40,025 nt of DNA from Clostridia bacterium (GTDB lineage Bacteria; Bacillota; Clostridia; Oscillospirales; CAG-272), in the NCBI GenBank assembly GCA_017532025.1, contig JAFXJX010000075.1, positions 1-40,025 on the forward strand, given 5' to 3'. A program made the position numbers and the translations under genes. Below, piece after piece: positions 5,806 to 31,456 of this stretch. The first letter of the stretch is position 1, and each line of letters begins with the position of its first letter. The notes below the pieces were generated by a model. The model was not told where the DNA came from. It saw only the letters and a list, made by a program, of their open reading frames with translations, and did no database searches.

Positions 5806-6567
5806 ATGAAAATTTACATTTGCCAAAATTACGAAGAAATGAGCGCACACGCCGCTGACCTCATTGCGGGACAAATCAAAGAAAAGCCTGATTCTGTCCT
5901 TGGTCTTGCCACAGGCTCTTCCCCCATCGGACTTTACAAGGAGCTTGTAGCTCGCAACCAAAAAGGCGAAATTTCCTTTAAGAACATCAAAACCGTCAAT
6001 CTCGACGAATACTGCGGTCTCACCGCCGACAATGACCAAAGCTACGCTTACTTCATGAACCAAAATCTGTTCAACCACGTGGATATTGATAAAGCCAACA
6101 CCAATCTGCCCGATGGCACAAATCCCGATGCAGCGGCAGAATGCGCCCGTTACGATGCGCTGATTGAATCGCTCGGCGGCATTGACATTCAGCTTCTCGG
6201 CATTGGTCTGAACGGTCACATCGGCTTTAACGAGCCTTCCGACACCATCTCGCTCGGCACCAACCACGTTGCCCTCACCCAAAGCACCTTTGAAGCCAAC
6301 GCCCGTTTCTTTGCTTCGATCGACGATGTACCGCGCTACGCTTACTCGATGGGTTGCGGCTCGATTCTGAACGCCAAAAAGATCCTGCTCGTTGCCAACG
6401 GCAAGGGTAAGGCTGAAATTCTGGAAAAATCCTTCTTCGGTCCTGTTACTTCGCAGGTCCCTGCTTCGCTTCTCAGACTCGTTTCGGATAAGGTTTACAT
6501 CTTTGCCGACAAGGAAGCAGGCGCACTCCTTCTTGAAAATCACCCCGAGGAGGTAATTGTACTGTGA
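5806..6567 (+). CDS. nagB: Glucosamine-6-phosphate deaminase NagB
   Basis: A 253-residue cytosolic enzyme of normal length, converting glucosamine 6-phosphate to fructose 6-phosphate and ammonia. Visible family signatures are LGLATGSSPIGLYKEL (31-46, phosphate-binding loop), NLDEYCGL (65-72, with catalytic Asp67) and GIGLNGHIGFNEPS (132-145, with His138 and Glu143 of the catalytic relay). AAAGGA precedes the ATG. The last bases overlap the nagA start as GTGA, and a GGAGG for nagA lies inside the nagB end, so the two are translationally coupled. With nagA it would feed N-acetylglucosamine, from cell-wall or host glycans, into glycolysis. Confidence 0.95.
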   Translation: MKIYICQNYEEMSAHAADLIAGQIKEKPDSVLGLATGSSPIGLYKELVARNQKGEISFKNIKTVNLDEYCGLTADNDQSYAYFMNQNLFNHVDIDKANTNLPDGTNPDAAAECARYDALIESLGGIDIQLLGIGLNGHIGFNEPSDTISLGTNHVALTQSTFEANARFFASIDDVPRYAYSMGCGSILNAKKILLVANGKGKAEILEKSFFGPVTSQVPASLLRLVSDKVYIFADKEAGALLLENHPEEVIVL

Positions 6568-7650
6568 AACTTCAAAACGTAAACCTGTATGACAGTACTC
6601 TGAAAAAGTTCGTGCAAGGCACGCTTTCGGTTGAAAACGGAAAAATCCAAGAGATCACCTATCAAAACGACGTAGCAGACGGCGACCTCATCATCCCCGG
6701 TCTTGTGGACGTACACACCCACGGCAGAGGCGGCTTTGACTACAACACCGCCACTCTGGAGCAAATGAAGACCATGAAGCGTCTGTATGCCGAACAAGGC
6801 GTGACCACCGTTGTGCCCACCTTGGCATCCGATACGCTTGACAATCTCATCTCCTCGATTGAAAAAATCCGCGAAGCAGGCTATACAGCCGTTCACATGG
6901 AAGGCAGATACTTAAACGAAAAGCGCCGTGGCGCACACGCCGCGCATCTCATTGCACCTCTCACAGCTTCCGAGGTTGCGCTTTTAAGAGAAGCGGCAGG
7001 CGATATGCACCTGCATATTTCCGCATCGTATGAGCTTGATCAGAGCGGAGAATTCCTCAAGGCAGCAAAAGAAAACGGCGCCACCGCCGGTCTTGCGCAC
7101 ACCGATGCCACTTACGATCAAGCTATGACCGCTGTTCAGAACGGTGTGATCTCCTTTACGCACCTCTTCAACGCCATGCCCCCTGTCCACCACCGCGCAG
7201 GGTGCTGTGATGGCAGGTCTGATCTCGGATGCTTACACCGAAATCATCTGCGACGGCTTCCATCTCGCTCCCGAAACGGTAAGACTTGTGAAAACCGCCA
7301 AAGACCCCTCGCGCGTGGTGCTGATTACCGACTCAATGGAAGGCACAGGTTGCCCCGACGGCGAATACAGCATCGCAGGCAATCCCGTCTATCTCAAAGG
7401 CGGCAAAGCCTACACGATCGAAGGTGCAATTGCCGGCAGCACCTTAGAGCTTCTTGACGGCGTGAAGAATTATGCAAACTTCTCTGCCATTTCCTTTGAA
7501 GAAGCACTCCCCGCGGCAACCATCAACCCCGCCACCATGCTCTCACTCGAAGGTGTGGGCGCACTCAAAGAAGGCAACCTTGCTAACTTTGTTCGCCTTG
7601 CCCCCGACTTCACGATCAAAGAAGTTTACGTCGGCGGAGAGAAAATTTAA
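6564..7650 (+). pseudogene. nagA: N-acetylglucosamine-6-phosphate deacetylase NagA, frameshifted
   Basis: Two overlapping frames together give a complete NagA of about 362 residues (family about 380). The first frame has the metal site VDVHTHGRGGFDY, HMEGRYLNEKRRGAH and THLFNAMPPVHHRA. It then shifts at 7200, and the second frame resumes GAVMAGLISDAYTE, through VLITDSMEGTG with the catalytic Asp, to the normal end. Family members read HHR-x-PG at this point. The bases GCA-G-GGT fit GCACCGGGT with two C missing, so a two-base deletion (or one-base insertion) is likely. Read as is, the product is 297 residues ending in unrelated sequence and lacking the catalytic Asp. The rest is undamaged, so the event is recent or a sequence error. 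The start is GTG at 6564. Confidence 0.9.
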
Positions 7651-7659
7651 TCATATACC

Positions 7660-7754
7660 GTAGGGACTTTCCGTCCTCGACTGTCCGTGAACAATCAATT
7701 TCTATTCAATAAGATTTGATTGCTTGCGGACAGTCGAGGACGGAAAGTCCCTAC
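7660..7754. repeat. Perfect 28-bp inverted repeat, palindromic element
   Basis: Arms 7660-7687 and 7727-7754 are perfect reverse complements, starting GTAGGGACTTTCCGTCC. After a small mismatch the pairing continues with CAATCAA on both sides, leaving a short loop. It carries no coding frame and lies just after nagA. It looks like a small interspersed palindromic (MITE- or REP-like) element. Confidence 0.85.
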
Positions 7755-26502: not shown

Positions 26503-27732
26503 TTAGGGTTCCTGGTAGAAGAGAAGCTCGGAAGCCTGCCAGAGTTCGCCGTTTTCAGCAACGAACTTGAAGTACTGATAGGTTGCTACGTTGTCAAGAG
26601 CGTAGTATCTTTCCAAGTAGTTTGCGCTGATAGGAGCCTTGTCGATGGCATTGCCTTCGGCATCAAGACCGTCAGCTGCATAGATCTCGGTCCATGTGCC
26701 TTCTTCGCCGGTTGCAGAGCCGTAAAGCTTAAAGGCAACGATGGTTCTGCCGTTGGAGTTTGCGTTATCGTTCGCGTTAACGATCGAGAAGCCAACAACA
26801 TTCAGAACTTCAGAATACTTAACCGTAGTAGCCTTGTCTTCGCCGTTGTCACCGGTGCAGATCTTGGTTTCAACCTTGCCGTCAAAGAACTTTTTGTAGT
26901 CTTCGCCGTTGCCCGAGTCGGGACCTGCAAGAGGTGTTGCCGTTGCCTGGTCAACAACAATAAGGTTGGTAGGACGGTTTTTGTCAGCGATCATAACCTT
27001 TTCTTCGGGCTTGGTGTGAGTATAGGGGCCCCAAAGATCATCGCTGGTGAGGTCTGCAAAATAAACCACGTTCTTTTTGGAATCGTAGATATCGATTCTT
27101 ACCTGCTCGTAGGTGTACTGGTTGTTTTCATCGTATTCAAAGAGGCTCCACTTAAAGTCAGGGCCAAGGTCGATACGCACCCAACCGGAGGTGTTGTTGT
27201 TAAAGAGCGAGAATCTCTCAATTTCCCATTCTTTGCCTTCAATGGTAACAACCCAAGTATAATCCGAGCTGGGTTCCCAGTTGGTGTTGGTGTTTTCGTT
27301 TTCGGTATCAACGATAAAGAGGTCGTTATAAACGCCGCCCTGATCGTTCATGCTGATAACGAGCGCCACGTTGTTGTCGAGCGATGCATGGAAGTCTTCA
27401 AACGCAAAGAATGCGGAGTCCATGTTACTGATTGCCATGTAGCCTTCTTCCCACAGAAGGTCGATGCCTTCCTGTGCGGGAGGTGTTACAGGATCGGTGT
27501 CGGGAGTGGTGGTGGTATCGGGAGTGGTGGTGTCGTCACCGGGCTTTGCAGCAGTGGTGTCGTCACCGGGAGTGGTGGTGTCTACGCCGGGCTTTGCTGC
27601 GGTGGTGTCTACGCCGGGCTTTGCAGCAGTGGTATCAACGCCGCCCTTGGTCGTGGTAGGAGCATCGCCGCCGCAAGCAACAAGTGCCAGCGCAAGAAGA
27701 GCAACTACCGCAACAATAAGAAGCTTTTTCAT
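26503..27732 (-). CDS. Lipoprotein 1 with Thr/Pro-rich repeats and discoidin-like domain
   Basis: A 409-residue lipoprotein: signal MKKLLIVAVVALLALALVAC with lipobox LVAC and Cys20. A low-complexity linker (about 26-85) of repeats such as GVDTTAAKP and GDDTTTP follows. Next comes a beta-rich domain (about 88-250; FEDFHASLDNNVALVISM, GWVRIDLGPDF), and last a discoidin-like domain (about 275-409; KFFDGKVETKIC, AFKLYGSATGEEGTWTEI, NVATYQYFKFVAENG). It is a paralogue of lipoprotein 2, and its last domain resembles modules of the GH92 enzyme. A binding protein tethered outside the membrane is likely; the ligand is unknown. The ATG at 27732 has AAGGA seven bases upstream. Confidence 0.88.
   Translation of the reverse strand: MKKLLIVAVVALLALALVACGGDAPTTTKGGVDTTAAKPGVDTTAAKPGVDTTTPGDDTTAAKPGDDTTTPDTTTTPDTDPVTPPAQEGIDLLWEEGYMAISNMDSAFFAFEDFHASLDNNVALVISMNDQGGVYNDLFIVDTENENTNTNWEPSSDYTWVVTIEGKEWEIERFSLFNNNTSGWVRIDLGPDFKWSLFEYDENNQYTYEQVRIDIYDSKKNVVYFADLTSDDLWGPYTHTKPEEKVMIADKNRPTNLIVVDQATATPLAGPDSGNGEDYKKFFDGKVETKICTGDNGEDKATTVKYSEVLNVVGFSIVNANDNANSNGRTIVAFKLYGSATGEEGTWTEIYAADGLDAEGNAIDKAPISANYLERYYALDNVATYQYFKFVAENGELWQASELLFYQEP
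27500..27660. repeat. Tandem repeats encoding the lipoprotein 1 linker
   Basis: Degenerate units of about 27 bases (GTGGTGTCTACGCCGGGCTTTG-like, each 20 or fewer bases conserved) encode GVDTTAAKP and variants. Neighbouring copies are close enough for slippage or recombination to change the linker length in frame. Confidence 0.8.
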
Positions 27733-27798
27733 AGTAAATTCCTTCCTTTCCATAAATGGATCTGGTTAATCCGGTAATATTTTCCTTACCGTACTGTT

Positions 27799-27979: not shown

Positions 27980-29224
27980 TTATTCCTTGGTCCAAAGCAT
28001 GATGCCGGACATCTGGTATGTGCTGGTAACGTCGAGCTCGAGCTTGAAGTAGCTGTATTCAACACCCTTAGCGAGCTTGAAGTTTCTTTCGGCGTAGTTG
28101 GAACCTTCGGTAGCAGCTTCACCGTTCTTTTCATCGATGAGAGTCCAGTTATTACCGTCGTTGGAGCCGTAGAACTTGAATACGGTAGGAATACGGCTGG
28201 GATAGGTCTGGTCATCGCCTGCGCCTACGAGAGAGTAGGAGGTAACGTACTTAGCTTCATCATACTTCCAAACGATGGGAGTAGGAACTTCGCCGGAATC
28301 GCAAAGCTTGGTCTGAACGTTGATCTGATCGTCGTCGGTGCGGTCGAAGAGGTTGGTGTAGTGCTCGCCGGTGTAGCCTTCAGGACCGGAAATAGCAGTA
28401 GCGCCGGTAATTTCAACTTCTGCAGGGTCACGGTTGGGGTCAGGATCAAGTTCGGTGGGCTTCGGAGGCACAAACTCATGAACGCCGTTCCATTCGGGGT
28501 CGGTCATGTAAGCATAGAAAACAACGGGTTCATTATCTTTGGTAACGTCAACGATGCGAAGTTTGATTTCGGCGTATCTAACCTTGCCATCTTCATCCTT
28601 TGCCTTGAGCTCGAAGTCGGGACCAAGGTCGAGACGAACATAACCGTAGGTGGTAACGTGGTAAACCGAGAATCTTTCGATAACGTGATCTTCGCCTTCA
28701 AGGGTAAGAATCCACTTATAGTCTTCGTTCATCACCCAAGTGTCTTCGCCGCCTTCCTCATCGGAGGGAACCGTCATAACAAGTTCAGTGTACCATGCGT
28801 TTTCGCATTCCTGGAAGAGGATAACGTATGCCCAGTTCATGTCAAGAGAAGCGTGGTGGTTTTCAAAAGCACCTACATTCATGTCTCCGGTCAATCCCGC
28901 GGGATTGATGGCGCGGTCTTCTTCAGTACCGTTCAGAATGTCGATACCTTCAACACCGGGAAGGACGGGGGTGGTGTCGTCACCGGGCTTTGCAGTGGTG
29001 TCGTCACCGGGCTTTGCAGTGGTGTTGTCGCCGGGTTTTGCGGTGGTGATAACGCCGGGCTTTGCAGCGGTGGTGTCGTCACCGGGCTTTGCAGCGGTGG
29101 TGTCAACGCCGGGCTTTGCAGCGGTGGTGTCAACGCCCTTGGTGGTGGTAGGAGCATCGCCGCCGCAAGCAACGAGTGCAAGCGCAAGAAGAGCAACTAC
29201 CATAACAATAATCAGCTTTTTCAT
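27980..29224 (-). CDS. Lipoprotein 2 with Thr/Pro-rich repeats and discoidin-like domain
   Basis: A 414-residue paralogue of lipoprotein 1 in the same order: lipobox LVAC (Cys20); linker about 26-90 of GVDTTAAKP, GDDTTAKP and GDNTTAKP units; a beta-rich domain (about 92-255; FENHHASLDMNWAYVIL, GYVRLDLGPDF); and a discoidin-like domain (about 275-414; VFKFYGSNDGNNWTLID, GVEYSYFKLELD). The two proteins share motifs throughout but clearly differ in the mature domains, while their signal-peptide DNA is almost the same. AAAGGA lies ten bases before the ATG. It has its own promoter and terminator, so the pair can be expressed separately. A surface binding role is inferred. Confidence 0.88.
   Translation of the reverse strand: MKKLIIVMVVALLALALVACGGDAPTTTKGVDTTAAKPGVDTTAAKPGDDTTAAKPGVITTAKPGDNTTAKPGDDTTAKPGDDTTPVLPGVEGIDILNGTEEDRAINPAGLTGDMNVGAFENHHASLDMNWAYVILFQECENAWYTELVMTVPSDEEGGEDTWVMNEDYKWILTLEGEDHVIERFSVYHVTTYGYVRLDLGPDFELKAKDEDGKVRYAEIKLRIVDVTKDNEPVVFYAYMTDPEWNGVHEFVPPKPTELDPDPNRDPAEVEITGATAISGPEGYTGEHYTNLFDRTDDDQINVQTKLCDSGEVPTPIVWKYDEAKYVTSYSLVGAGDDQTYPSRIPTVFKFYGSNDGNNWTLIDEKNGEAATEGSNYAERNFKLAKGVEYSYFKLELDVTSTYQMSGIMLWTKE
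28965..29150. repeat. Tandem repeats encoding the lipoprotein 2 linker
   Basis: Seven or so units of 24-27 bases (GTGGTGTCGTCACCGGGCTT-like) encode DDTTAKPG and VDTTAAKPG. Units of both 24 and 27 bases occur, which shows past unit loss or gain in multiples of three. Confidence 0.82.
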
Positions 29225-29386: not shown

Positions 29387-30049
29387 TCAAAGCAGCTTTG
29401 CCGCAACATCCACAGAGAGATAGTCCGGCACGTAAAGGTCGGCAAGGTTTTTGATTTTATCTTGATAATTCTTCATCGAATCATCATAAATGGCAACCAC
29501 AAAATAACCGTCGCGCTTGGCGGTGCGGATGGCGTACAACGCGTCTTCAAATACCGCAATATTCTCTTTGGGAATGCCAAGCGCCTCGGTGGCAAGACGG
29601 TAAATGGTGGGTTTGCTCTTCCCTTCTCCTACCTCGGTGCAGGTCAGCATCCCTTCCAGATAATCATAAATTCCGCAGCGCTTGAGACAAGGCTCAATCA
29701 AATGGCGGTCAGTTGCCGTGGCGGCAAACATTTTCACGCCAGCAGCTTTGAAGCGCTCGAGCATTTCCATCACACCCTCTTTGGGAAACAGCACTTCATG
29801 GTACTGATAGACGAGTTCATCGTTAATGGCGCGCGTAATTTCCTCGGGCGTGACCGAAAGCCCGTAACGGCTGTGAAAATGCGCCGCCGATTCCTCTACC
29901 GTACTGACCTTGATGATGTCATCGGTATCGGGGTCAGGCTCAATGCCAAGCGAGCGCAGGTATGTAGAGCCGATGGTGTCCCAAACGTGCATCGAAAGCA
30001 GAAGCGTGCCGTCAAGATCAAAAATAATGCCTTTGATTGTTTTCTTCAT
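29387..30049 (-). CDS. HAD-superfamily hydrolase, beta-phosphoglucomutase/phosphatase-like
   Basis: A 220-residue HAD enzyme with a helical cap. Motif I is FDLDGTLL (Asp11 nucleophile, Asp13 acid), motif II is the ATATD segment, motif III is a Lys in GKSKPTIYRLA, and motif IV is VFEDALYAI. The cap type and length fit phosphoglycolate phosphatase or beta-phosphoglucomutase-like members. The EDALYAI segment where most have EDSxxGI is slightly unusual. Substrate cannot be told. The ATG at 30049 has AAGGA nine bases upstream and follows the RluA-TPK stop by 12 bases, as last gene of the secA run. I see no convincing terminator after it. Confidence 0.87.
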   Translation of the reverse strand: MKKTIKGIIFDLDGTLLLSMHVWDTIGSTYLRSLGIEPDPDTDDIIKVSTVEESAAHFHSRYGLSVTPEEITRAINDELVYQYHEVLFPKEGVMEMLERFKAAGVKMFAATATDRHLIEPCLKRCGIYDYLEGMLTCTEVGEGKSKPTIYRLATEALGIPKENIAVFEDALYAIRTAKRDGYFVVAIYDDSMKNYQDKIKNLADLYVPDYLSVDVAAKLL

Positions 30050-30061
30050 ATCCAAACGTCC

Positions 30062-31396
30062 TTATCGTTTCAACAAACTCTTATGCGGAAAGGGGTTTTT
30101 CAGGTTATCCCAAAAAAGGAACAAATATCCCTCTTCTGCCGAAACCGTAGCTTCTTGACCCACAAAATGATTGCTCACGCCAAGTGCCTTGTCCTGAAGT
30201 AGCGTACCGTTGCACAAAGGGTACAAAAGCCCTTCGATCGAAACGCCCTCGCAAACTTCACTTGCCGCAAAAACTGACAAAATACCCTCGCAGGTCTGAG
30301 AAAATTCAAAGCACTCACCACCGCAAAGTACCGTCACAACACCCTCTTTGCCCACAAGATAGGCAGAAATACCACGTTTGGCAAGCGACAAAACAAGCGC
30401 CATATTGGCAAGCGTGTGGTCAAGCCGACCGCCCGTACCGCCAAACAGGAAAAAGCTGTCGCATCCGCGGGCAAGCCCTTCTTTTACGGCAAGCGCCATA
30501 TCGGTATCATCCTTCATCACAGGGAAACGAAGCGTTTCCACCCCCTCGGGAACAGTTCCAAGCGAATCAAAATCACCCACGGCAAGGTTGGGCTTGATGC
30601 CGTAGGCTTCGGTATGCAGCAACCCGCCGTCGGCGGCAATCACAAAGGCATCGCGCGCAAGATCACGCAATTCTCCGTGATAGTCTCCCGCGCCAAATAT
30701 ACAGCACCTCGCGCATCCTCCAAAAGAATCCCACACACCGCCTTCGGGTAGCGGCAAAGAAAAGGTCATATATTCACCGCTTGTCGGATGGTGAAAGCCG
30801 ATGCAAGCCGAAAAAAGTGCTACGTTTTGCCCGCCAATCGTCGATCCATAGCGTTTATCCCCCACAAGCGGATGGCGGCGCGAAGCAAACTGCACGCGAA
30901 TCTGATGCGTGCGCCCCGTGCCAAGCTTCACGCGACAAAGTGAAAGCGCACCCTTTTCGGTTTCAAGTGCCGAAAGCACGCAAAACGTCAGCCGCGCGTC
31001 CTTTACCCCCGCTCTCTTGCGGTCGGTGACGTAGCTTTTGTTTTTCTTCGCATCGCGAAAGAGGTAGTCAAACATCTCCCCCGCTTTGCCAAGGTCAGCT
31101 TCAACATTGCCCTCGCAAACGGCAAAATATTCTTTTTGCATCCCACCGCGCGCAATTTCCTCAGAAAGTGCCGCCGCGCTCTTTTTGTTTTTGACAAATA
31201 CCATCACGCCGCCCACTGCGGCGTCAAGTCGGTGGAGTACGTACGGCGTTGCTTTTTCGCCTGTTTGGGCAAAGTGCTCCGAAAGCAACGTCAGCATATC
31301 GCTTCCCTTGCCCTCGGCATCGGCTTGCGACAACACCCCAACAGGCTTTTCACATACGACGATGGCGCGGTCTTCATATAAAATATTGAGTTTCAT
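30062..31396 (-). CDS. RluA-family pseudouridine synthase fused to thiamine pyrophosphokinase
   Basis: A 444-residue two-enzyme fusion in one uninterrupted frame. Residues 1-215 form an RluA-type pseudouridine synthase without S4 domain: KPVGVLSQ, HRLDAAVGG with catalytic Asp58, and GRTHQIRVQF (161-170). Residues about 230-432 form thiamine pyrophosphokinase: AADGGLLH (254-261), GDFDSLG (274-280), DDTDMALAV (296-304) and GGTGGRLDHTLAN (319-331), the Mg-ATP and thiamine site. One half would modify RNA uridines; the other makes thiamine diphosphate. Both sets of key residues look intact. The ATG at 31396 has GGAG five bases upstream. Separate genes are the norm, so this fusion is unusual. Confidence 0.92.
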   Translation of the reverse strand: MKLNILYEDRAIVVCEKPVGVLSQADAEGKGSDMLTLLSEHFAQTGEKATPYVLHRLDAAVGGVMVFVKNKKSAAALSEEIARGGMQKEYFAVCEGNVEADLGKAGEMFDYLFRDAKKNKSYVTDRKRAGVKDARLTFCVLSALETEKGALSLCRVKLGTGRTHQIRVQFASRRHPLVGDKRYGSTIGGQNVALFSACIGFHHPTSGEYMTFSLPLPEGGVWDSFGGCARCCIFGAGDYHGELRDLARDAFVIAADGGLLHTEAYGIKPNLAVGDFDSLGTVPEGVETLRFPVMKDDTDMALAVKEGLARGCDSFFLFGGTGGRLDHTLANMALVLSLAKRGISAYLVGKEGVVTVLCGGECFEFSQTCEGILSVFAASEVCEGVSIEGLLYPLCNGTLLQDKALGVSNHFVGQEATVSAEEGYLFLFWDNLKNPFPHKSLLKR

Positions 31397-31456
31397 GGTC
31401 ACTCCGAAATCATGTTCTTTACGTTCTTGTGTTGCGGACAACCTAAACTTCCAATA

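Follow-up and report, generated by a model that had tools for sequence, protein, structure and literature searches.

A probable lineage-specific fusion of neighbouring rluA and tpk genes in a Clostridia bacterium

The 40,025-nucleotide stretch of DNA analysed here (the window), which comes from an uncultured gut-type member of the Clostridia, raises the question of whether the presence of an RluA-type pseudouridine synthase and a thiamine pyrophosphokinase (TPK) in a single reading frame reflects a relationship between the two activities, or is simply the outcome of the joining of two adjacent genes. The preliminary description of the locus, which was made from the sequence alone, allowed for both. 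The reading favoured by the evidence set out below, to which we assign a probability of about 0.83, is that the gene is a lineage-specific, recent and tolerated fusion of two neighbouring housekeeping genes into one that encodes a bifunctional protein. The process is ordinary (frame transitions between adjacent genes, gene fusion and gene fission are well known in prokaryotes; PMC3711429), and it is the domain pair that is new. The value of the case is that it offers a clear snapshot of the passage from two overlapping genes to one protein, in which a sister species without the fusion, an indel at the junction and a start codon that has decayed are all visible.

The fused gene and its predicted product

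The minus strand from 31396 to 30062 carries one uninterrupted open frame in which a complete RluA-type pseudouridine synthase (about residues 1-222) is followed, with almost no linker, by a complete TPK (about residues 229-444). The features of the region are as follows.

30062..31396, minus strand: fused rluA-tpk gene, 444 amino acids, one open frame from an ATG at 31396 to a stop at 30062, with a GGAG Shine-Dalgarno sequence and an AlphaFold mean pLDDT of 93
30731..31396, minus strand: RluA-type pseudouridine synthase part, residues 1-222, with HRLD (Asp58), GRTHQIR and PF00849, 81.5% identical to the free-standing RluA of the sister species (locus L082), Foldseek match 2i82
30707..30730, minus strand: fusion junction, residues 223-230 (DSFGGCAR), placed by DNA alignment with L082 and the codon table
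30065..30706, minus strand: TPK part, residues 231-444, with ADGG, GDFDS, DDTD, GGTGGRLDHT and GVSN, PF04263 and PF04265, TIGR01378, Foldseek match 3lm8; the only TPK found in the assembly
31402..31405, minus strand: Shine-Dalgarno-like GGAG, 5 nt ahead of the ATG (GGAG to ATG spans 31405-31394)
29387..30055, minus strand: downstream HAD-family phosphatase (PF00702/PF13419), in the same order in L082, L083, L085, L036 and L030
31457..32851, minus strand: upstream membrane protein of no named family and without a Pfam match, kept across the genus, with a homologue of 89% identity in L082

A longer open reading frame beginning at TTG 31441 was considered, and this start is less likely than the ATG with its GGAG 5 nt upstream.

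All of the Pfam matches of the protein exceed their gathering scores: PF00849 at residues 12-172 (E 3e-25; 89.6 bits against a cut-off of 26.8), PF04263 at residues 249-346 (E 3e-20) and PF04265 at residues 372-425 (E 7e-10). The thiamine diphosphokinase model TIGR01378 is passed with 135.3 bits against an equivalog cut-off of 76.4, while the first half of the protein falls below the cut-offs of the RluA, RluC, RluD and TruC equivalogs, so that the name of the TPK is secure, whereas the RluA domain can be assigned only to its family. That family-level assignment draws together the PF00849 match, the catalytic Asp58 in HRLD, and GRTHQIR; the TPK assignment draws on the catalytic and B1-binding domains, TIGR01378 and the TPK fold. 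The claim in the preliminary description that both complete domains share one uninterrupted frame is therefore confirmed.

In the AlphaFold prediction, for which the input alignment consisted of separate RluA and TPK relatives, confidence dips at residues 221-230 and the pTM is 0.74, which is the pattern expected of a model with two rigid domains on a short loop. The best Foldseek match of the first half is E. coli RluA (2i82; TM 0.85 by target), and the second half matches B. subtilis TPK (3lm8; TM 0.85 by target); none of the matches listed spans both halves. The first half has the HRLD catalytic aspartate, GRTHQIR and the predicted fold in common with E. coli RluA, RluC and RluD, but it differs from them in having no S4 domain, in scoring below every one of the equivalog cut-offs, and in carrying a TPK at its C-terminal end. 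The second half shares both domains, the motifs and the fold with B. subtilis TPK and TIGR01378, but unlike other bacterial TPKs it begins inside a longer protein and has lost its own start codon.

Comparison of the window with L082 gives a dN/dS of 0.157 in the first (RluA) half and 0.153 in the second (TPK) half, close to the 0.095-0.106 of three unfused neighbours; these values span the whole time since the split from the sister species, and much of that time may precede the fusion. The catalytic motifs are kept in both halves, and the sequences indicate that both have been under purifying selection and have been kept functional since the divergence from the sister; both activities are presumably retained in the fusion.

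The assembly (1.99 Mb, metagenome-assembled, in 108 contigs and 80% complete) was checked for another TPK gene, as the preliminary description had proposed, and none was found. A second route to TPP through ThiL was rejected, the match being below the cut-off and the gene reading as PurM by sequence. A TPP riboswitch is present on contig C67, ahead of a membrane protein that resembles ThiT in sequence; none lies within the window. Because the fused TPK is the only one found, ThiL is absent and the riboswitch precedes a ThiT-type importer, the route to TPP in this organism is probably import of thiamine followed by its pyrophosphorylation by the fused protein. The RluA-type domain probably converts uridines of rRNA or tRNA to pseudouridine, and this activity may be partly redundant, since there are five other PF00849 matches in the genome. 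The product would be a single polypeptide containing two independently folding enzymes, which most likely work independently and without influence on one another. The chief consequence would then be the production of RluA and TPK at a fixed 1:1 ratio, and if the TPK dimerises like its relatives there would be one RluA domain per subunit.

Gene arrangement in the genus and the probable origin of the junction

The fusion is known from one genome of one species. It is present in none of the six congeners examined (0/6), in all of which (6/6) rluA ends with its own stop. The nearest species searched is the sister (genome G147, a goat colon metagenome-assembled genome; contig JAFQNZ010000166.1, locus L082; about 82% identical), in which rluA (6372-7070) and tpk (7067-7714) overlap at GTGA. 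The two genes overlap at ATGA in G061 (L009/L085), are separated by 4 nt in G149 and by 250 bp in G150 (L083), and lie on two contigs in G148, with other genes after rluA and before tpk; in G151 the stop of rluA falls at the contig end and tpk is a partial match on another contig. Each congener that has any tpk catalytic domain has exactly one, and none was found in G151. The gene order shared in the genus runs from the membrane protein, in some cases by way of a PdxK-like kinase or MFS transporter, to rluA, tpk and the HAD phosphatase, and adjacency of rluA and tpk among the loci fetched is confined to this genus.

Further observations were made at these loci. Both L082 (5022-5987) and L083 have a PdxK-like kinase gene between the membrane protein and rluA; the window lacks it (31442-31456), and its genome has only a kinase-like match of 25% identity on contig C19. 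The RluA of G061 (L009:524-1504; 326 residues) has an extra loop of about 100 residues inside the catalytic domain region. The window also contains two adjacent related lipoprotein-like proteins (26503-27753 and 27980-29224, minus strand), each with a signal-like stretch followed by low-complexity, Thr/Pro/Asp-rich repeats (DTTAAKPG) in the N-terminal part, and in L082, too, a relative follows the HAD gene.

The search for the same two-domain order elsewhere, which had been suggested in the preliminary description, was extended well beyond the genus. Among the matches listed for the whole protein against 147 genomes of the order, 196 of the family and 291 of the class, only the one in its own genome is full-length; among those listed for the TPK against 398 genomes of the phylum, no frame has at least 400 residues; and among plasmid records none reaches 80% coverage of the fused-protein query. 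The case for restriction of the fusion to one genome is strong, short of exhaustive, and neither the congeners nor the matches listed for order, family, class and phylum provide the second species that a conserved RluA-TPK fusion family would require. Several candidates were rejected: the long RluA frames of genera g117 and g147 turned out to be fusions with CYTH and GNAT domains; a 1355-residue frame in G851 reads as RluA, then a stop, then IleRS; the TPK frames of 330-394 residues in L015, L096 and L098 look like normal TPKs extended upstream; and the TPK frame of L097 has only 235 residues. The preliminary description had taken separate genes at this locus in relatives as evidence against a fusion; such relatives exist, and what they refute is a conserved fusion, while the fused gene of this one genome is unaffected.

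The window pairs with the unfused L082 in the RluA tree (100/99), and an ancestral fusion was rejected, since every congener is unfused and the window falls within the group that they form. With rluA and tpk separate in the closest relatives, the gene appears to be the product of an accidental and recent joining of neighbours, and of the two explanations originally offered it is the simple fusion of neighbours that the adjacent, separate genes of the congeners support.

The junction itself, originally placed near residue 220, lies more exactly at about residues 223-230. In the DNA alignment the distance from TTT (residue 225) to the old tpk start is 20 nt in L082 and 9 nt in the window, which has thus lost a net 11 nt, and this puts rluA into the frame of tpk. 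The former tpk start codon, which is ATG or GTG in relatives, is GCG in the window (Ala229; 30710-30712), so that the window reads ARCCIF where relatives read MRCCIF or MKCCIF. The RluA part has been shortened at its C-terminus by about seven residues, which read AKVRDEE in L082 and lie outside the PF00849 match. The ancestral state would have been rluA and tpk side by side before the HAD phosphatase gene, with a 4-nt overlap in some species, and the two were probably translationally coupled neighbours before the fusion. Loss of a net 11 nt immediately ahead of the overlap would have carried the rluA frame into that of tpk and bypassed the rluA stop, after which the tpk start codon, being needed no more, may have decayed to GCG; we infer this order of events, with the indel first and the decay afterwards.

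Possible internal initiation or assembly error

The alternative that survives best, and still an unlikely one, is that translation also begins inside the gene, at the GTG of codon 221 or at a rarer start further in, so that the cell makes free TPK as well as the fusion. The preliminary description had reported no new ribosome site at the join, which is nearly right, since the only common in-frame start nearby is GTG 221, with weak Shine-Dalgarno complementarity upstream; strong Shine-Dalgarno-like sequences, GGAGG and CGAGG, do lie at codons 226-230. Against internal initiation, no in-frame ATG, GTG or TTG stands at the usual distance past GGAGG, and the old tpk start codon is gone.

It is very unlikely that rluA and tpk are in reality two overlapping genes, as in the sister, and that an indel error in the consensus of the metagenome-assembled genome mimics a fusion. 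The fragmented and incomplete state of the assembly and the occurrence of the fusion in a single genome speak for such an error, singletons among frame transitions being possible errors or recent indels (PMC3711429), and at an overlap of -4 such as that of the sister one small frame error would resemble a fusion. However, the join involves a net 11 nt and, besides this, the change of the tpk start from GTG or ATG to GCG, so that a single sequencing slip, in a homopolymer or otherwise, cannot explain it, and the sequence on both flanks is good coding sequence with dN/dS values like those of the neighbours.

The question of functional coupling, and other RluA fusions

We regard it as highly improbable that the fusion was selected for a functional coupling between RNA pseudouridylation and the status of thiamine or TPP, with shared regulation and direct sensing as possible means. 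Overlap or near-overlap of rluA and tpk is seen in several congeners; genes with short overlaps are often translated by termination-reinitiation, and the arrangement is enriched for complex-forming pairs (PMC10666635), which is a weak argument for a prior interaction between RluA and TPK. Yeast Rib2 also combines a pseudouridine synthase domain with a vitamin enzyme, that of riboflavin (PMC8256712). However, the fusion occurs in one species, the adjacency is unseen beyond the genus in the loci fetched, the genes lie apart in G150 and G148, no TPP riboswitch is found in the window, and related RluA genes have joined CYTH and GNAT domains instead. The idea raised in the preliminary description that RNA quality might be linked with cofactor state is thus unsupported, given the single species, the genus-limited adjacency and the fusion of the same RluA branch to unrelated domains. 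Least probable of all is that the fusion of RluA to the only TPK is adaptive and forms a new moonlighting link between RNA pseudouridylation and the supply of TPP, whether through a tether of TPK to ribosome assembly, the sensing of thiamine or some similar mechanism. A single fusion is a poor ground for inferring links between pathways, and this one would gain in importance only with a demonstrated influence of either activity on the other.

The nearest analogue is yeast Rib2/Pus8 (PMC8256712, citing Behm-Ansmant 2004), in which a pseudouridine synthase domain is likewise N-terminal to a vitamin-pathway enzyme, but in which the partner is a riboflavin-pathway deaminase, the combination being usual in yeasts and of separate origin. 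The preliminary description knew of no characterised example of an RluA-TPK protein, and a literature search for such a protein or fusion similarly returned nothing relevant. A TPK is also part of a fused protein in Tnr3 of S. pombe, a eukaryote, but there its partner is a Nudix domain, which is tied to thiamine chemistry.

In this bacterial family the same short-RluA branch occurs in two other two-domain frames, with the following members.

L077:1474-2643, L090:701-1885 (minus strand), L091:578-1765 and L092:419-1675: four species of genus g117, with a CYTH-like domain at the C-terminus of RluA
L093:1116-2252 (minus strand), L094:16-1212 and L095:5-1150: GNAT acetyltransferase domain (PF00583) ahead of RluA, in three species of genus g147

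Pfam makes no call for the C-terminal tail in g117, and the profile of this tail matches PDB entries 3typ and 2fbl (E 1e-8), which we take to be CYTH proteins and whose records name both only as uncharacterised proteins. These fusions differ from that of the window in their partners and in that each occurs in several species and forms its own clade in the RluA tree (100/99 for CYTH and 100/100 for GNAT), apart from the window and L082. That the partners are so different suggests that the RluA domain tolerates fusion. The RluA-CYTH fusion, being conserved, is of more interest than RluA-TPK. The GNAT-RluA genes of g147 are followed by a beta-glucosidase-like gene.
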